Of a DNA stretch of 64,000 nt, positions 310 through 8,106 are shown one piece after another. The notes beneath the pieces were generated by a model. The model saw nothing but the letters and a program-made list of their open reading frames with translations. It was not told the origin of the DNA and ran no database searches. The stretch is from Flavobacteriaceae bacterium. Its GTDB lineage: Bacteria; Bacteroidota; Bacteroidia; Flavobacteriales; Flavobacteriaceae. Within the stretch, counting starts at the first letter, position 1, and each line of letters opens with the position of its first letter. The stretch spans positions 1 to 64,000 of the forward strand of contig PKEA01000071.1 of NCBI GenBank assembly GCA_002862805.1, in the 5' to 3' direction. A program made the translations under genes and the position numbers.

Positions 310-1470
310 TTATAAACCTGTTGTCCAGCCTTGTGCCCATGTAGGCACTCCTGTTCCGTTTCCAGCTCCAGTTGCGGTTGTAGTTTCTGTATAAGCATTA
401 GTAACGTCTACAGTTGCTCCAGCAGTATTTTTACCTTTTGAAAGATTTGTAATATTGCTAAAAGTTACATTAGTTACTTTTAAATCTGTTGGGATAAACG
501 CGATTGTTTGGTCATGCTCAATATTTAGTCCTGTAAGAAAGTTGTCTAATACAACGTTTGACATGATTGATTTTGTTCCTCTTCTTAATTTAATTGCATC
601 TGGTTCGCTTCCTTGATCTCCAAGACCAATTAATGTCATGTTGTTTATTGTAGGATTAGCAATTGGAGTAGCATCAAAATTTGCTTCTAAATTGTCAGCT
701 TCAATTCCTCTGTTTCCAATATTGTTTCCTAATTTACCATACCAGTAATTGTTAGTTCCAGACCATCCTTCAGTCCAATCAAATTGATCATCTTCGTTAT
801 AAGTTGATACGATATAAGATGTGTTTACTGTTCCTCCAAAAAACTCAACACCATCATCTGAACTTCTGTAAAATTGAACATATTCTATAATAGTTCCAGA
901 ACCTACACCAAATAATGAAAGCGCATTAAATTCTTTATTAGCATTGTATATTGCTCCAGAATATTCAATTCTTAAATATCTGATAGTTCCTGAATTGTCG
1001 TTTGGATTTGTTCCTCCATAAGTTAAGCCTGAAACTTCAGCAGAAGCAGAAGTTGCGCTATTTATAGGAGCTTTTCCACAAATTACTAATCCTCCCCAAT
1101 CTCCAGGTGCTGGACTTCCGTTTGCACTTGTCATAACTACAGGGTCAGTAGAAGTTCCATTTACATATATTTTTCCACCTTGAGCAACAACGATATAAGC
1201 CGATGTTCCACCTGTAGCTTCAATTCTTGTTCCTGCAGGAATAGTTAAACTTGCATCTTCTTGAATAGTTAAAGGACCTGTTAATTTGTAAATTGTGTTT
1301 GCTTGTAAAGAAACATTGGTAAAAATATTTCCTTGAAAATCATTTGGATCAATTGTGCTTGTATTGCTGTTGTTTCCAGAAACGTTGTCTCCTTCTTCTA
1401 CTGTAATACAACTTGTAGCAAGTAATGATGTCATTACTATAAAGCTAAATAATTTTACAATTTTTTTCAT
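310..1470 (-). CDS. surface lipoprotein partner of the upstream TonB receptor
   Basis: A 386-residue protein with a lipoprotein signal: hydrophobic residues 4-17, then LLATSC with the lipid cysteine at position 21. The mature part is rich in Gly, Asn, Thr and Ser, and contains the phrase GDWGGLVICGKAPIN around residues 120-136. That phrase is typical of Bacteroidota lipoproteins encoded next to TonB receptors; the repetitive sequence suggests a parallel beta-helix (inference). It follows the TonB receptor gene by 27 bp on the same strand, so the two should be one transcript. Given the PhoB/PhoR-like regulators next door, a role in phosphate or organophosphate capture is plausible but not shown. 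Confidence 0.7.
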   Translation of the reverse strand: MKKIVKLFSFIVMTSLLATSCITVEEGDNVSGNNSNTSTIDPNDFQGNIFTNVSLQANTIYKLTGPLTIQEDASLTIPAGTRIEATGGTSAYIVVAQGGKIYVNGTSTDPVVMTSANGSPAPGDWGGLVICGKAPINSATSASAEVSGLTYGGTNPNDNSGTIRYLRIEYSGAIYNANKEFNALSLFGVGSGTIIEYVQFYRSSDDGVEFFGGTVNTSYIVSTYNEDDQFDWTEGWSGTNNYWYGKLGNNIGNRGIEADNLEANFDATPIANPTINNMTLIGLGDQGSEPDAIKLRRGTKSIMSNVVLDNFLTGLNIEHDQTIAFIPTDLKVTNVTFSNITNLSKGKNTAGATVDVTNAYTETTTATGAGNGTGVPTWAQGWTTGL

Positions 1471-1497: not shown

Positions 1498-4257
1498 TTA
1501 AAATTTATAATTAAGTGATAAGCTTGTGTTTATACCTTTTTTAAAGGATTGAATTGTAATATCGCTATTTGGGTTTTCCTGAACCATTTTAAAATCAGGA
1601 TTTAATAAGTTTTTAGCAGATAATCCAATACCTAGGTTTTTAGTCAATTTAGATTTTAAGATAAAGTCAAGAGAACCAATAGACTTTTCAACAATATTTC
1701 CTCTTCCTTGAGTTCCAATGGCATAAATTTTATCTGAATAAGTAGAGTAAGCAATTGTAGCCATTAAGTTAGTTTCTGTTTTTTTCCATTCTTTAAGAAA
1801 AGTAACATCCGCATTTATTAATAAATCTGATGCTCCAGAAAACGATGTGTTTTTTTCAGTAAAAGTGGTATTAAATGCAGTTTCGTTTGCTACTTTATCA
1901 TTGTCTAATTCCTGATTAGTGTACATGTATGAAATGTTTAATCCTCCAGAAATGTTATTGTTTATAGTTTCATTACTTCTGTTATAAAGTATTTTTTTAC
2001 CTTCAAATTCAATTCCTGCAGCGTAACCCCAATCTCCAGTATTTACATAAGAAATATCGTTACTTGATGATGCGATAGTAACTTCGTTCATTGGGTTTTG
2101 AATATATTTACCAAAACCAGTTACTGCTATTACTTCTTCATTTTTAGGAAAATATTCCCATTTTAAGTCAAAGTTGTAATCATCTGAAGGATATAAATCT
2201 TTATTACCAATTTTTTGTTGGTTTATTTCTTCGTAGATAAATGGAGCCGTTTCTTTAAATTGAGGTAAAGTATAAGTTTTACTTGCGCCAAATCTTAAGT
2301 TTTGTTTGTCGTTAAGTTCATATTTTGCAGTAACATTTGGTAACACTCCTACTTTTGTAAAGTAGTTTTTGTCTCCAATAGGATCTACTTGAGTTTGCCA
2401 TTCTACGCTTTGGTAAATTTGATCAGAACGAAGTCCAACTACAGCGAAGAATTTTTTTGAAAATTGATATTCTACAGATCCAAAAGCACTACTTATAAAT
2501 TGTAGCCCTGAATATGTTTGTGGATTTAAAGCGTTTGGACTATTAACACCTCCATTATAAGTATTAATTGTAAAGTATCCGTTATTAAAGTTTGTTTCGT
2601 TGAAATAGGCATCAATATTATTTGGGTCTATGATTGTTGTAGTTGCGCCAGGAGTTAAAGCATTAATTTTAAAGTTAAACTGAGTAGCTTCAAAATCTCT
2701 AGATTTATATTTTCCATTATAACCAATAGTTATTTTTCCTTTAAATTCATCTTCTTTTTTCGCAAATTTATAATCTCCAGAAAGGCTTACGGCATATTCG
2801 TCTTCAGTTAGCTTCTGGTAATATCTTTGATTATCTGAAGCAGAGTTATTAGCAATTACAAAGTCATTTGTGCTATTTCTTTTAAGAGTGTTTGTAGTTC
2901 TATCTGGCATATCTCCTTTTACTTGGTTGTATGAGATTCCCCAGTTTGCAGAATATCTATCTTTATATTTGTGCTCACCAAGCAATTGGTTTATAAAAAT
3001 AGAGTTTTTAATGTATTCATTTCTTCTTATAAAACCATCTTCTTGAGTAACATCGGCAACAAAACCATTGTATTCTTTTAGTGATTGAGATGATGAATTG
3101 ATAAATACACTATTGTATTTTATTTTATGATTGTTGTTAATTTTAAATCCTAAATTAAATAAGCCTGTAGTATTAGTATTGTAACCAAAAGATTCATATT
3201 TGTTAAAATCTTTAGTAGCAACTCCTTCAGCGTTTACAGATCTTGCTATTCCGTTTTTGATTGCAGTATATTCATTGTCAAATGAAACAGAAGCAAATAA
3301 ACTTAATCTACTAACTTCCCCTAAATTAAACCGTTTTCCTCCAGCTAAGCTTAAACCAGAAGCCCATGGAGATTCTTTATGTGGATTTAAACTATTCTCA
3401 AAATTATAACTTGATAATACATTTGAAGGTACACTTGAATTGTGAAAGCCTAAAAATGAAGGGCCGTCTTGTAATCTGAAATTTTTATTTGATACTGCAT
3501 TTGTGTTAATGGCAGATTTTAATCCAAATGCTAAAAATCCTGAGCCATTATAATCTTTAGACATTATGTCTATGTTTCCACCTGCAAAATCACCATACAT
3601 TCTACTGTTATATACTTTGTCAATAGAAACGTATTCAACAATATCTGTAGAGAAAATACCTAAATCTATATTCTTTTTTTCAGGGTCGTTTGAAGGAATA
3701 GGAAGTCCATTCATAGAAGTAGAATTGTATCTATCTCCAAGACCTCTAACATAAATACTTCCAGAACCTTCTTGTTTTGAGATTCCTGTTGTTTTTGTTA
3801 CTGCTGCTGCAACGTCACTAACTCCTTTTTTAGAAAGTTCCTGTGCTCCAATACTTTGTTTAATTTCAACAGATTTTTGTTGTTCATTTAATAAAGCAGA
3901 TTCACTTTCTTTAGAAACGGTATGTACCACCACCACATCATTTAATTGAACACCACTTGCTTCAAGAGTATGGTTAATGGTTACAGTTTGATTTGCTTTT
4001 AACGTAAAAGGGAACTCTTTAGTTTCATAACCAAGATAGTTTACAATTAAAGTATAGCTTCCTGGTTTAAGTGATATTGAGTATTTCCCAAAATCATCTG
4101 TAGAAGTCCCTATAGTTGTTCCTTTAATAAGAACGTTTGCAAAAACTAAAGGTTCATTGTCATATTCTTTGTCTAAAATAGTTCCGGTTACTCTACCATT
4201 TTGAGAAAACCCTATTAGACTAAATAATAAAAATAATAGTAACGAATTGAATTTCAT
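1498..4257 (-). CDS. TonB-dependent receptor with N-terminal carboxypeptidase-regulatory-like domain
   Basis: A 919-residue outer-membrane receptor. I start it at ATG 4257 (MKFNSLLLFLLFSLIGFSQ), because this gives a proper signal peptide; the ATG nine codons upstream does not. Order: signal peptide, a CarboxypepD-like beta domain (about residues 22-100), a plug domain carrying SIYVRGLGDRYN and LPIPSNDPEKK, then a 22-strand-type barrel ending in an aromatic-terminated strand (SLSLNYKF). It forms an operon with the lipoprotein downstream and is divergent from the PhoB/PhoR-like pair. The substrate is unknown; phosphate-starvation control is inferred from the repeat array upstream. Confidence 0.88.
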   Translation of the reverse strand: MKFNSLLLFLLFSLIGFSQNGRVTGTILDKEYDNEPLVFANVLIKGTTIGTSTDDFGKYSISLKPGSYTLIVNYLGYETKEFPFTLKANQTVTINHTLEASGVQLNDVVVVHTVSKESESALLNEQQKSVEIKQSIGAQELSKKGVSDVAAAVTKTTGISKQEGSGSIYVRGLGDRYNSTSMNGLPIPSNDPEKKNIDLGIFSTDIVEYVSIDKVYNSRMYGDFAGGNIDIMSKDYNGSGFLAFGLKSAINTNAVSNKNFRLQDGPSFLGFHNSSVPSNVLSSYNFENSLNPHKESPWASGLSLAGGKRFNLGEVSRLSLFASVSFDNEYTAIKNGIARSVNAEGVATKDFNKYESFGYNTNTTGLFNLGFKINNNHKIKYNSVFINSSSQSLKEYNGFVADVTQEDGFIRRNEYIKNSIFINQLLGEHKYKDRYSANWGISYNQVKGDMPDRTTNTLKRNSTNDFVIANNSASDNQRYYQKLTEDEYAVSLSGDYKFAKKEDEFKGKITIGYNGKYKSRDFEATQFNFKINALTPGATTTIIDPNNIDAYFNETNFNNGYFTINTYNGGVNSPNALNPQTYSGLQFISSAFGSVEYQFSKKFFAVVGLRSDQIYQSVEWQTQVDPIGDKNYFTKVGVLPNVTAKYELNDKQNLRFGASKTYTLPQFKETAPFIYEEINQQKIGNKDLYPSDDYNFDLKWEYFPKNEEVIAVTGFGKYIQNPMNEVTIASSSNDISYVNTGDWGYAAGIEFEGKKILYNRSNETINNNISGGLNISYMYTNQELDNDKVANETAFNTTFTEKNTSFSGASDLLINADVTFLKEWKKTETNLMATIAYSTYSDKIYAIGTQGRGNIVEKSIGSLDFILKSKLTKNLGIGLSAKNLLNPDFKMVQENPNSDITIQSFKKGINTSLSLNYKF

Positions 4258-4300
4258 GTTGTGTTGTTCTAAATTTTGATGCAAAGAAACCGCGAGAAAA

Positions 4301-4358
4301 TTAACAGACTGTTAACGTCGTGTTATGCTTGTATGTAAAAAGTGTTATTAAAATGTTA
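4301..4358. promoter_or_regulatory. 11-bp-phased TGTTA repeat array, candidate Pho-box-like operator
   Basis: TGTTA occurs at 4310, 4321, 4343 and 4354, all in the same 11-bp phase; the register at 4332 holds a degenerate TATGTA. The left end also makes an inverted repeat TTAACA-GAC-TGTTAA (4301-4315). OmpR/PhoB-type regulators bind head-to-tail as dimers to 11-bp direct repeats, so this is the expected architecture for the PhoB-like regulator encoded 80 bp to the right. On the minus strand a -7-like TTTCTTTG (4282-4289) for the TonB receptor lies about 12 bp beyond the array, which would place the array where a -33 element normally sits. Confidence 0.55.
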
Positions 4359-4371
4359 TGACATTAAATAA

Positions 4372-4401
4372 TTGTTAAGTGAATTATTTACTTATATTTT
4401 G
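4372..4401 (+). promoter_or_regulatory. possible promoter of the phoB/phoR-like operon
   Basis: TTG at 4372-4374 is followed after 18 bases by TATATTTTG (4393-4401), one base longer than the Bacteroidota -7 consensus TAnnTTTG. The predicted start would be about 30 bases upstream of ATG 4437. The fit is imperfect. Confidence 0.35.
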
Positions 4402-4436
4402 TTTTATCTTTACTAACTGAAACTTAATTTAAAGAA

Positions 4437-5120
4437 ATGAATAATCAAGAAATTACGATTTTATTAGTAGATGATGAACCAGATATATTAGAAATTGTAG
4501 GTTATAATTTATCTCAAGAAGGTTATAAGATTATTACAGCTTCAAATGGTAAAGAGGCTGTTTCAACTGCAAAAAAAGAAACTCCACAATTAATAATTAT
4601 GGATGTAATGATGCCAGAAATGGACGGTATAGAAGCTTGTGAAAAAATTAGACAAGTTCCCGAGTTACAAAATACAATCATTACTTTTTTAACAGCTCGT
4701 TCAGAAGATTATTCTCAAATGGCAGGGTTTGATGCAGGAGCTGATGATTATATCTCAAAACCTATCAAGCCAAGAATTTTAGTTAGTAAAGTAAAAGCGT
4801 TATTGAGAAGAGTCAAGGATAATGCTGAAGTTTCGGATATTTTAAATGTTGGCGGAATAGAAATAAATAGAGAAGAATATAAAATTGTAAAGGAAGGTGA
4901 AGAAATTTCTTTGCCAAGAAAAGAGTTTGAATTATTCTACTTACTAGCAACAAAACCAGGAAAGGTTTTTACAAGAGAAGAAATTTTAGATAAAGTTTGG
5001 GGCAATGAAGTTATTGTGGGAGGAAGAACTATTGATGTTCATATTAGAAAGCTTAGAGAGAAAATTGGAGATGAGTTTTTTAAAACCATAAAAGGAGTAG
5101 GTTATAAAATTGAATTTTAA
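4437..5120 (+). CDS. OmpR/PhoB-family response regulator
   Basis: A 227-residue two-domain regulator. The receiver domain (1-120) has acidic pocket residues D12-D13, phospho-acceptor D56 in IIMDVMMPEMDG, switch threonine T85 and lysine K107 in SKP. The winged-helix DNA-binding domain (about 130-227) ends with the recognition-helix and wing sequence GRTIDVHIRKLREKIG...IKGVGYKIEF typical of PhoB. The stop codon overlaps the kinase start by one base (TAATG), so the pair is translationally coupled. It is divergent from a TonB receptor operon with an 11-bp repeat array between them. Whether it is the true PhoB of the organism cannot be proved here. Confidence 0.9.
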   Translation: MNNQEITILLVDDEPDILEIVGYNLSQEGYKIITASNGKEAVSTAKKETPQLIIMDVMMPEMDGIEACEKIRQVPELQNTIITFLTARSEDYSQMAGFDAGADDYISKPIKPRILVSKVKALLRRVKDNAEVSDILNVGGIEINREEYKIVKEGEEISLPRKEFELFYLLATKPGKVFTREEILDKVWGNEVIVGGRTIDVHIRKLREKIGDEFFKTIKGVGYKIEF

Positions 5121-6163
5121 TGAGTTTTAATTTTAAAAAATCATATAAATTTGCTACTTTTTCAGCTATTTTCATTAGCTTGTTTTTATTAATCTTATTT
5201 TTGTTTTTTCATTTTTTTATTGCAGAAATAAGCTTTCATCTTATCTTTTTTATTGTTTTTTCATCGTTTATTTTTTCTTTTTTTGCTCTTCAGTATAGAG
5301 TTGAAAAATTTATATATCAAAGAGTAAAAAAAATATACGATGATGTTTCTTTATTAGAAACAAGCTCTTTTAGAAATCAATCTATAACCACGGATATGGC
5401 AACTTTAACTAAAGAGGTTCAAAAGTTTGCAAAAGATAAAAAACTCGAAATAGAAACGTTGAAAATTCGAGAAGAGTATAGAAGAGAGTTTTTAGGAAAT
5501 GTTTCTCATGAATTAAAAACTCCTTTATTTACAGTTCAGGGCTATTTATTAACATTGTTAGATGGAGCAATGGACGATAAAAATATTCGAAAAAAATATT
5601 TACAAAGAGCAGAAAAAGGTGTAGAAAGGCTTATTTATATTGTAAAAGACTTAGATATGATAACAAAGTTAGAAACAGGCGATTTAAACCTTGATCTTTC
5701 TGAATTTGATATTATTGAAGTCATTCAAAATGTTTTTGATTTACTCGAAATGAGAGCTGCTAAAAAAAATATCACACTTACTTTTGATACTAAATATAAA
5801 GAAAAAATAGTGGTTTTTGCAGATCAAGAAAAAATTCAACAAGTGGTTACTAATTTGGTTATGAACTCTATTAAATATGGTAAAGAAAAAGGTACTACAG
5901 AAGTTAGTGTTGAAAATTTAGTAAATAATAAGGTTATCGTTAGGATTACTGATAATGGGGAAGGAATTGAAAAGAAACATATTTCAAGACTTTTTGAACG
6001 CTTTTATAGAGTAGATAAAAGTGGAGCAAGAAGCGAAGGTGGTTCAGGACTTGGATTAGCTATTGTAAAACATATTGTAGAAGGACATAATGAGAAAATT
6101 TACATAGAAAGTGAATTTGGAGTAGGTTCTGAGTTTTCATTTACTTTAGAAAAGGTCAAATAA
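5120..6163 (+). CDS. membrane sensor histidine kinase, PhoR-like
   Basis: A 347-residue kinase. Two adjacent membrane spans (about 11-33 and 38-57) have almost no periplasmic loop, as in PhoR-type kinases that sense through membrane or cytoplasmic partners. A short linker leads to the HisKA box FLGNVSHELKTPLF with phospho-histidine H130. The HATPase domain shows the N box (VTNLVMNSIKYG), G1 box DNGEGI, F box RLFERFYRVD and G2 box GGSGLGLAIVKHIV. The cognate regulator lies immediately upstream. The last 18 bases overlap, tail to tail, the end of the glycosyltransferase gene on the other strand. Confidence 0.9.
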   Translation: MSFNFKKSYKFATFSAIFISLFLLILFLFFHFFIAEISFHLIFFIVFSSFIFSFFALQYRVEKFIYQRVKKIYDDVSLLETSSFRNQSITTDMATLTKEVQKFAKDKKLEIETLKIREEYRREFLGNVSHELKTPLFTVQGYLLTLLDGAMDDKNIRKKYLQRAEKGVERLIYIVKDLDMITKLETGDLNLDLSEFDIIEVIQNVFDLLEMRAAKKNITLTFDTKYKEKIVVFADQEKIQQVVTNLVMNSIKYGKEKGTTEVSVENLVNNKVIVRITDNGEGIEKKHISRLFERFYRVDKSGARSEGGSGLGLAIVKHIVEGHNEKIYIESEFGVGSEFSFTLEKVK

Positions 6164-7189
6164 TTCTTTCCAAGTTATTTTTTTACTATAATTTGTAAAA
6201 CCTTTGTATAATTCAATTTCATCTAATTTTTTAATTGTAAAATCTTCTTGTTTGCAAGAAGGTATAATTCCTTCTTTTTTGAATTTTTTAGCTAAATATT
6301 CTTGTTCATATTGCCCAGGGGTTGCAATGAAAAATGCTTTCTTATTTAGTTTTGCTAAGTCCATAACAGTAGTGTAACCAGAACGACATAATATATGATT
6401 ACTTTCATTAAAAGTGGTTTGTAATTCTCTGCTGTTCATGAAGTTGTAGTAAGTAATGTTGTTTTTAACTTCTTTAATTTGTTTTTTTTCAACTACCCCT
6501 TTAATGAAAATTACTTTTTTAGGGTATTTTTCTAATTCTAAAATTATTTTTTCTTCTAAAATGGTTCGTTGAGGTTCTGGACCAGATAATAAAACCATTA
6601 AATCATAAACAGTTGGCATTGGTTTTTTGCATAATCTACTTAAAGGGCCAATGTATTTTACATTTTTAATCAATTCTGTAGGATGGCCAAGTTTTCCTGA
6701 TAAATTGGGGCTGGTTTCTACATCAGGAACCCAGCATTCATCGAATTTTTGAATGTATTTCTTGTGCAATATTGTAGTTAGCCATGAAGTACTTCCTGTT
6801 AAAACATTTAACTGATGCGTAATAAACACAGAAGGAACTTCTTTTGAAAAAACACCTAATCTATTATCAGAAATAATTCCGTCAAAATGATAAGCGCTTA
6901 TTATTTTAGCTACTGTTTTTTGCTCGTTCTGAATTGCTGAAATAATTTTAGGAATTTGAGCAATCATTTTCCATTTAAAATTTCTTCCTTTTTGAGCATA
7001 TTGAATGTTATAGGAAGGAAGTTCAAATGAAATTAGTTTTGGGAATTCTTTTTTTAATAATTCTAAAGCAACTCCATCAGATGCAATTACAGGTTCAAAA
7101 CCATTATCAATTAACCCATTAATTATAGGAATGCATCTTGTGGCATGACCAAGTCCCCAGTTTAAAGGAGCAACTAATATTTTTTTCAT
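6146..7189 (-). CDS. MurG-like glycosyltransferase family protein
   Basis: A 347-residue GT-B fold protein. It begins MKKILVAPLNWGLGHATRC, where the glycine-rich GLGHATR loop resembles the N-terminal loop of MurG and related family 28 transferases. The C-terminal half contains VLLSGPEPQRTILE and later CRSGYTTVMDLAKLNKKAFFIATPGQYEQEYLA, the typical nucleotide-sugar binding region. It is encoded 21 bp after an LpxH-like phosphoesterase gene on the same strand, a pairing that suggests envelope lipid or polysaccharide work (inference). It is not MurG itself, which would sit in the dcw cluster. The acceptor is unknown. Confidence 0.8.
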   Translation of the reverse strand: MKKILVAPLNWGLGHATRCIPIINGLIDNGFEPVIASDGVALELLKKEFPKLISFELPSYNIQYAQKGRNFKWKMIAQIPKIISAIQNEQKTVAKIISAYHFDGIISDNRLGVFSKEVPSVFITHQLNVLTGSTSWLTTILHKKYIQKFDECWVPDVETSPNLSGKLGHPTELIKNVKYIGPLSRLCKKPMPTVYDLMVLLSGPEPQRTILEEKIILELEKYPKKVIFIKGVVEKKQIKEVKNNITYYNFMNSRELQTTFNESNHILCRSGYTTVMDLAKLNKKAFFIATPGQYEQEYLAKKFKKEGIIPSCKQEDFTIKKLDEIELYKGFTNYSKKITWKELFDLF

Positions 7190-7210: not shown

Positions 7211-8029
7211 TTAATTCTTTAAAACAGAAATAAATTGTTCCGCTAATTTATTTTCATATTCAAAAGTTTCTTCTTCCGCTTCTACTTTATGTAATTCATG
7301 TTTATACAGCTTCCATTTTTTGTTATTGTATTCAAGGGCGGTTAAATTTTCAATCCAGTCACCAGAATTTAAATATAATGTTTTCCCTTTATCATTTTCT
7401 ACAACTTCCATTTTTGGTTCGTGAATATGTCCGCATATTACATAGTCATAGTTGTTTTCAATGGCTAATTCGGTACAAACATTTTCAAAGTTGGTAATGA
7501 ATTTTACCGCCGATTTTACATTGTTTTTTATCTTTTTGGATAATGAATAAGGTTCTTTTTTCATTTTAGCCAAAACCCAATTAATAAATCGATTTATCAA
7601 AATTAACATGTCATAACCCCAACCGCCTAATTTTGCTAACCATTTTGCATGTGTAATTGAAGCATCGAAAACATCACCATGAAATATCCATGCTTTTTTT
7701 CCATCTAAATCTAAAACTAATTTGTTAAGTAAACTTAGGTTTCCAAGATGCAAATCGGAAAACTTTCTTAAAAACTCATCATGATTACCTGTTAAGTAAT
7801 ACACCTTTGTTCCTTTAGAGCTCATTGAAATTATTTTTTTTATAACTTTCAAATGATCTTTAGGAAAATAAGATTTTCTAAATTGCCAAATATCAATAAT
7901 ATCTCCGTTTAGAATAAGCGTTTTAGGTTTAATAGAAGACAAATATTCTAATAATTCCTTTGCATGACAACCATAAGTACCTAAATGCACATCGGAAATT
8001 ACAGCAAGTTCTACTTTTCGTTTCTTCAC
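7211..8029 (-). CDS. UDP-2,3-diacylglucosamine diphosphatase-like metallophosphoesterase (LpxH-type)
   Basis: A 272-residue calcineurin-like phosphoesterase. The metal ligands are visible in order: D13 and H15 (ISDVHLG), D43 (LNGDIIDIW), N82-H83 (TGNHDEF), a histidine in IFHGDVFD, and CGHIHEPK. The insert region WQFRKSYFP and the overall length match LpxH-type hydrolases that cleave UDP-2,3-diacylglucosamine in lipid A synthesis. It heads a two-gene operon with the MurG-like transferase. Other substrates are possible, since Bacteroidota often carry several paralogues of this family. Confidence 0.82.
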   Translation of the reverse strand: MKKRKVELAVISDVHLGTYGCHAKELLEYLSSIKPKTLILNGDIIDIWQFRKSYFPKDHLKVIKKIISMSSKGTKVYYLTGNHDEFLRKFSDLHLGNLSLLNKLVLDLDGKKAWIFHGDVFDASITHAKWLAKLGGWGYDMLILINRFINWVLAKMKKEPYSLSKKIKNNVKSAVKFITNFENVCTELAIENNYDYVICGHIHEPKMEVVENDKGKTLYLNSGDWIENLTALEYNNKKWKLYKHELHKVEAEEETFEYENKLAEQFISVLKN

Positions 8030-8106
8030 TAGAATAAATTTTTACAAAAAAAGAGATTTTTATACTTTATAAGGTTACATAAATATTATCAAAACTTTAT
8101 TTTTAG

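Follow-up and report, generated by a model that had tools for sequence, protein, structure and literature searches.

In a 64,000-nucleotide stretch of DNA from a Flavobacteriaceae bacterium (the window), a regularly spaced run of TGTTA words lies in the intergenic span (positions 4258-4436) between a gene for a TonB-dependent receptor, whose ATG lies at 4257, and an oppositely oriented gene for a PhoB-like response regulator, whose ATG lies at 4437. Which of these two genes does the array serve, and which protein binds it? Bacteroidota are major recyclers of phosphorus in soil, water and the gut, and their Pho regulon is known by expression, while a binding word for it was not found in the literature searched. 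The genes of the locus are as follows.

Positions 310 to 1470, minus strand: lipoprotein following the receptor, part of the target operon; an open reading frame without a Pfam match.
Positions 1498 to 4257, minus strand: TonB-dependent receptor, the target gene (CarboxypepD_reg-like, Plug and barrel domains by Pfam).
Positions 4437 to 5120, plus strand: PhoB-like response regulator, the presumed binder (Response_reg, PF00072; Trans_reg_C, PF00486).
Positions 5120 to 6163, plus strand: PhoR-like histidine kinase (HisKA and HATPase_c; best models PnpS and PhoR, both below their cut-offs).

The regulator combines the receiver and winged-helix domains expected of a PhoB, and its two best NCBIfam models are PhoB (TIGR02154, 217.4 bits) and Bacteroides-type PhoB (NF053854, 209.4 bits). 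Neither score reaches the curated cut-off (296.2 and 270 bits, respectively), nor does that of the kinase against PhoR (TIGR02966, 234.6 versus 334.2 bits), and a PDB sequence search with the regulator returned general OmpR-family relatives.

Direct reading of the window places TGTTA at 4310, 4321, 4343 and 4354 and a degenerate TATGT at 4332, all in a single 11-bp register; a further TGTTA at 4373 lies outside it. Homopolymers excluded, TGTTA, counted from 4310, is the sole 5-mer of the window to fill four or more of five successive steps at a period of 10, 11 or 12. In 200 dinucleotide shuffles of the window the phased count rose to three of five at most (two shuffles) and never to the four of five of the real sequence (0/200). 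The phased units that an earlier, sequence-only reading of this DNA had listed are real. The two-unit word TGTTA-N6-TGTTA is weak evidence by itself, since its two occurrences in the window, both inside the array, compare with a shuffle mean of 0.49 and with at least two occurrences in 10 of 100 shuffles. A simple tandem repeat was rejected because the units have only their core in common. To the five units of the earlier list, all of which stand, a sixth in-register unit must be added on the receptor side. Written in the coding direction of the receptor, the units are these.

Positions 4299 to 4304, minus strand: unit 0, the promoter-proximal hexamer, TTAATT (AATTAA on the plus strand); weak, 11 bp before 4310, gapless in relatives.
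Positions 4310 to 4315, minus strand: unit 1, TTAACA; by direct reading, a conserved unit in relatives.
Positions 4321 to 4326, minus strand: unit 2, ATAACA; by direct reading and from the profile of relatives.
Positions 4332 to 4337, minus strand: unit 3, degenerate, TACATA; the weakest unit in relatives too.
Positions 4343 to 4348, minus strand: unit 4, ATAACA; by direct reading and from the profile of relatives.
Positions 4354 to 4359, minus strand: unit 5, ATAACA; adjoins the conserved block nearest phoB (about 4363-4378).

The same arrangement is seen upstream of phoB in relatives. Our sample comprised 80 phoB upstream regions (79 loci and the window), taken from the best 80 loci encoding near relatives of the regulator, the majority of them named Flavobacterium; one locus with only 60 bp of upstream sequence (L086) was left out of the lag, profile and receptor-linkage counts. 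Pairs of plus-strand TGTTA concentrate at lags of 11 (29 pairs), 33 (31) and 44 (42), as against 11 at lag 19, seven each at lags 16, 30 and 47, and at most three at every lag for minus-strand pairs; lag 22 yields only four because units 3 and 4 are seldom exact TGTTA. Of the 80 regions, 59 (window included) score above 40 against a gapless profile made of seven 11-bp blocks, among which the block of unit 3 carries the lowest information (4.5 bits). The expectation that the phasing would persist at this locus in relatives was thereby borne out.

These regions also indicate which promoter the array addresses. Among the 59 well-fitting sequences (the 21 scoring 40 or less were left out of the gap counts for -7 elements), 58, the window included, carry GCAAA, or TTTGC in the coding sense, on the receptor side, L087 being the one without it, and the gap from unit 0 to GCAAA is 13 bp in 55 of the 58, 12 bp in one and 14 bp in two. 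Measured along the receptor's coding strand, the start of the proximal hexamer is therefore 19 bp ahead of TTTG (in the window, first T at 4304 and TTTG at 4285), a tetranucleotide that forms part of the TAnnTTTG element located at -12 to -5 in Flavobacterium psychrophilum promoters (PMC9723704). On the other side, the candidate -7 element of phoB lies anywhere from 23 to 42 bp from the end of the array in 57 of the 59 sequences, with clusters at 23-24 and 31.

Positions 4282 to 4289, minus strand: predicted -7 element of the receptor operon, TTTCTTTG (compare TAnnTTTG); its TTTG is 19 bp past the start of the proximal hexamer.
Positions 4405 to 4412, plus strand: predicted -7 element of phoB, TATCTTTA; its distance to the array end varies among loci.

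The word of the array is TTAACA-N5 on the minus strand, pointing to the TonB receptor/lipoprotein operon. The window array accordingly shows the tandem 11-bp direct repeats of a Pho box, in a single orientation and at a helically fixed distance from the promoter (13 bp from unit 0 to GCAAA in those 55 of 58 receptor sequences; 19 + 11n bp to TTTG before the other genes described below). The sequence-only reading had proposed promoter-proximal, Pho-box-like 11-bp repeats tied to the receptor/lipoprotein operon, which agrees with these results; its strand does not, the spacing being fixed to the receptor promoter and the word running toward it.

Presence of the array also follows presence of the receptor gene, which adjoins phoB in 66 of the 80 loci. 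Of the 66 loci with an adjacent receptor, 65 reach a four-unit score of 8 or more; of the 13 without one, 4 do so (Fisher p 3e-8, for sequences that are not phylogenetically independent). The exceptions are L055, which has the receptor gene and lacks the array, and L080, L102, L042 and L092, which have an array-like score and no adjacent receptor by tblastn; in L102, only short minus-strand ORFs adjoin phoB. Between the array and the phoB promoter stands a further conserved block, TTAAATTAnnGTTAA (4363-4378 in the window, with counterparts in L023 to L102), kept, by a slightly looser pattern, in 49 of the 66 receptor loci versus 5 of the 13 loci without an adjacent receptor.

Expression data exist for a locus of closely similar order, the PhoBR locus of Flavobacterium johnsoniae (Fjoh_0541-0549), which shares with the window the succession of glycosyltransferase, PhoR, PhoB, TonB-dependent receptor and lipoprotein genes, and differs in an OprP porin gene placed between glycosyltransferase and PhoR (PMC8115612). 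On phosphate (Pi) depletion, log2 changes of 8.02 and 9.91 are reported there for the receptor Fjoh_0545 and the lipoprotein Fjoh_0546, whose counterparts the window genes are by gene order and annotation, together with 5.42 for the glycosyltransferase, 3.06 for PhoB and 0.76 for PhoR (adjusted p 0.056); the porin Fjoh_0542 was not induced (-1.3, adjusted p 0.25) (PMC8115612). This lack of porin induction speaks against a Pho box reading, in that a box precedes porins of this type in relatives. Induction by Pi depletion is thus known for the like-ordered F. johnsoniae operon, and bears on the window by analogy. The terms "Pho box" and "binding site" occur nowhere in the main text of that paper.

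Positions 4299-4359 very probably constitute a Pho box array of six 11-bp half-sites (TTAACA-N5), belonging mainly to the minus-strand receptor/lipoprotein promoter and putatively bound by PhoB. For the binder, its phosphorylation and its mode of activation we infer the following scheme. In Pi shortage the kinase encoded at 5120-6163 would phosphorylate the PhoB-like regulator encoded at 4437-5120, of which up to three head-to-tail dimers could then occupy the six half-sites. On a sigma-A promoter with the predicted -7 element TTTCTTTG, the proximal half-site would span about -27 to -22 and its neighbour about -38 to -33; these positions would put the activator in the place of the -33 element, where it may recruit RNA polymerase.

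A reading compatible with this one, to which we give somewhat less than an even chance, is that the single array controls both divergent promoters. Receptor and phoB are both Pi-induced in F. johnsoniae (PMC8115612), and units 4 and 5 as well as TTAAATTAnnGTTAA lie near phoB and are conserved, all of which would suit an influence on that side; against it, the geometry from the array to the phoB promoter is not fixed in the way that the receptor geometry is.

If the receptor-pointing array is a Pho box, it should recur before phosphate genes at other loci, and in relatives it does. PhoU matches were obtained in 17 of 61 genomes (18 rows); leaving out a second copy in G002 and a partial copy in G046 gave 16 pst-phoU regions, of which one (L185) was incomplete. 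In each of the 15 usable regions, one or more phased arrays carry TTAACA on the operon's coding strand; these arrays were chosen by score, so that their presence is partly selected, while orientation and TTTG offset are unselected. High-scoring regions in the opposite orientation also occur in three pst loci (L184, 6997-7327; L187, 1011-1488; L189, 7522-7728). Across 21 arrays (pst, together with porin, DUF47 and TonB-dependent receptor word matches) the offset from the last hexamer to TTTG is 19 in 18 and 30 in two, the remaining one (L209) having TTTA at 18; three of the 21 also have a further TTTG or TTTA nearby. In eight of nine additional arrays TTTG stands at 41, each time within TAnnTTTG, and a rule of 19 + 11n fits all but two of the 30 arrays. 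Arrays with TTTG at 41 bp (19 + 22) are seen as second arrays within the pst operons of L176, L180, L181, L183, L184, L187, L188 and L190, which suggests a separate promoter class.

Promoters of PlcP genes (30 loci among the matches listed in 61 genomes; PhoX-family loci were left out of our comparisons) show the same period: in the receptor-type orientation the three-unit value is 6.50 at period 11 versus 1.5-3.7 at the other periods from 7 to 16, a signal absent in the opposite orientation, and the TTTG offset equals 8 modulo 11 in 17 of 35 cases. A three-unit word, TGTTAA-N5-TGTTAA-N6-RTTA, was searched in 101 genomes of the genus and had 40 matches in 36 of them, against 7 for its reversed-pattern control. 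Sixteen of the 30 listed word loci share one geometry, in the opposite orientation, before a gene that in the one case scanned (L192) encodes a TetR regulator; the site of L192 and the 15 like loci is probably a different operator, and without these 16 the count is 24 versus 7. Nine other neighbouring genes were scanned and comprised four OprO/P-type porins, one DUF47 (PhoU_div) protein, two TonB receptors, a response regulator beside one of those receptors and an AMP-binding enzyme. A search of 100 genomes for exact fourfold GTTA, by comparison, yielded a pair of overlapping matches in a single genome, apparently a local repeat, versus three control matches in another.

A sequence-only model built on 46 gapless sites (R1) extends this survey. 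For model building, 4 of the 59 receptor sites were skipped on account of a different gap, and 26 of the remaining 55 entered set A1. The window array belongs to the training set, which makes its own R1 E-value of 8e-6 circular. Searched over 41 genomes with no shuffled control, R1 returned 125 rows at E of 0.05 or less, the best 74 of which (E up to 0.0036) were classified. Within those best 74, 29 precede the phoB-adjacent receptor gene (the window array among them) and 10 an OprO/P-type porin gene, replaced in L257 and L265 by a 443-aa gene that has no Pfam match and adjoins the kinase gene; seven lie in pst regions (four with a PstS-type Pfam match, three by position); nine precede DUF47, two PHO4 and one PlcP genes; and one precedes another TonB receptor. 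The other 15 have no phosphate gene, some of these neighbourhoods being unscanned. Once the receptor class and 10 of the porin/pst rows (the training set or its kind) are removed, 20 of 35 rows still precede phosphate-type genes.

Four of those 15 rows, in three loci, precede aspS, and one lies 190 bp before an ABC gene. The aspS matches (L287, L300 and L310, in three genomes) are 109-651 bp from the gene. In five further genomes (L302, L304, L305, L306 and L308), the first 1.1 kb or so after the R1 match, in its reading direction, contains no gene start, and these matches may represent one unrecognised feature.

The element thus occupies, in relatives, the position before phosphate-regulon genes that is expected of a Pho box, and the enrichment there that the sequence-only reading had predicted is found with the word as corrected above. 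The array is real, phased, uniformly oriented, set at a fixed spacing, linked to the receptor gene and recurrent before the phosphate genes of relatives; together with the induction in F. johnsoniae, this indicates a Pho-box-like array, most likely the putative target of the adjacent PhoB.

Direct repeats of 11 bp are generic for the OmpR family, and the array might be bound by another of its members (an ArcA-like or redox/envelope regulator, for example) in place of the adjacent PhoB. A case in point is the regulator called PhoP in Riemerella anatipestifer, a relative of the flavobacteria, whose DAP-seq motif TTTAACA (PMC9603813; also given in PMC5399024) has the same core as the window array, is reported to be ArcA-like, and marks mostly membrane and redox genes and mostly not phosphate genes; the accessible text of that report does not describe the motif as an 11-bp array with promoter spacing (PMC9603813). 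We consider this alternative unlikely, given that like-spaced arrays stand before pst, OprO/P porin and DUF47 genes, that R1 matches precede PHO4 and PlcP genes, and that the regulator gene itself adjoins the array. Within the phylum, PhoB of Bacteroides fragilis binds the pstC promoter in an EMSA with a 512-bp fragment, a likeness in that a Bacteroidota PhoB acts on a pst promoter; the portion of the report available gives no word for the site (PMC3547664).

An array belonging to phoB alone was rejected, because the fixed spacing is that to the receptor side, the distance to the phoB -7 element varies and the array is linked to the receptor gene. A milder form, in which the array serves mainly phoB autoregulation and the receptor operon is under other control, could appeal to the plus-strand TGTTA, which reads toward phoB, to the induction of F. 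johnsoniae phoB by log2 3.06 (PMC8115612), to the block nearest phoB, which 5 of the 13 loci lacking an adjacent receptor also retain, and to the Riemerella regulator, which binds upstream of its own operon (PMC9603813). We hold it to be very improbable: the spacing is fixed to the -7 element of the receptor and not to that of phoB, independent phosphate promoters use the receptor-pointing orientation, and 9 of the 13 loci that lack an adjacent receptor have the array in weak form or not at all.

Compared with known systems, the preferred reading of 4299-4359 as a receptor-operon Pho box has clear precedents. The PhoP box of Bacillus subtilis consists of TTAACA-like repeats, so that its hexamer and 11-bp repeat look like those of the window, in another phylum and sigma factor context. 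The E. coli Pho box stands about 10 bp before the -10 element; in the window the corresponding gap to the TAnnTTTG-type element is 9 bp. With the E. coli box, two 11-nt direct repeats with the core CTGTCAT (PMC4415409), the array has in common head-to-tail 11-bp repeats, a core that ends in CA in the direction of transcription (CTGTCA and TTAACA, respectively) and a promoter-proximal position, whereas its TTAACA word, a TAnnTTTG -7 element instead of TATAAT and the number of units, up to six, set it apart. The array is a variant of the known Pho box, and what is useful in it is a general word with its promoter geometry. Our literature search, which left many subscription papers outside its coverage, returned no paper defining a Bacteroidota Pho-box word, or TTAACA with PhoP.

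In the window's own genome (2.67 Mb, 97.5% complete), TGTTA-N6-TGTTA, which the sequence-only reading had offered as a Pho-box word, shows no enrichment (22 matches, intergenic ones among them, versus 21 for the reversed-pattern control), so that it carries information only where several units stand together at the promoter spacing; fourfold GTTA with up to two mismatches likewise gave 10 matches versus 15 in the control. This genome yielded no match to PhoU, PhoX or DUF47, and the 3.4 kb locus of its one OprO/P-type porin match lacks an exact two-unit site, so that the test of enrichment rests on relatives. The genome accordingly has a PhoBR-like pair while lacking PhoU and DUF47 matches. That the array is a chance repeat in AT-rich intergenic DNA, as the genome-wide parity of the two-unit word with its control might suggest, has negligible probability, the phased count having been reached in 0 of 200 shuffles and the phase being kept in 59 of 80 sequences.

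How far the word reaches beyond these relatives was gauged with a second model (R2), which was built from 20 pst, porin and DUF47 sites and none of the receptor class, and run on 41 genomes of the phylum, again with no shuffled control. Fourteen genomes yielded 23 rows at E of 0.01 or less, and 19 of these rows lie outside the genus. Seven of these 19 adjoin phosphate-type genes (PstS-type, Porin_O_P, DUF47, a BPD_transp_1 permease, a metallophosphoesterase and two Na/Pi cotransporters with a PhoU domain), five adjoin either a CarboxypepD_reg-domain gene (four rows, in three of which the gene also has a receptor plug domain) or another porin gene (one row), and seven have no recognisable target. 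Word and spacing probably recur beyond the genus, and the R2 matches, a small sample without a shuffled control, suggest a phylum-wide box. We lean, with some reserve, toward a general promoter rule for Bacteroidota, in which two to six TTAACA-N5 half-sites precede the promoter and the last in-phase hexamer starts 19 (+ 11n) bp before the TTTG of TAnnTTTG. If it is true, phosphate regulons of Bacteroidota, including TonB receptors of unknown function, could be read from sequence. Where a word comes with fixed promoter geometry, phosphate-regulated genes can be predicted; at the present locus, it connects phosphorus uptake with an uncharacterised TonB receptor and lipoprotein.

With default filters R2 does not call the window array, which reaches only 8.7 bits (E 0.0099) when a 5.5 kb stretch is searched with filters off. 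Across the 80 loci R2 recognises the receptor-side arrays weakly, its strong matches lying downstream of the kinase gene, most of them without annotation. On this evidence the receptor boxes form a divergent subtype, whose link with the other boxes lies less in their letters than in phase, orientation and spacing. One array, in L331, has an unusually long run of phased TAA units before a gene without a Pfam match, in a genome from another family of the same class.

The sole R2 match in the window under default filters (8070-8104, E 0.016) falls beyond the kinase gene, at a second and weaker site.

Positions 8045 to 8089, minus strand: Pho-box-like site with hexamers at 8089-8084 and 8078-8073 and TTTG at 8048-8045.

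Its offset from hexamer to TTTG is 30 (19 + 11), and it precedes a PlcP-like gene (7211-8029) and the glycosyltransferase gene (6146-7189), both assigned by Pfam. In F. johnsoniae PlcP and glycosyltransferase are lipid remodelling genes, and an orphan PlcP rises by log2 8.59 on Pi depletion (PMC8115612); putative Pho boxes have also been marked in plcP gene clusters of marine bacteria (PMC4796936).
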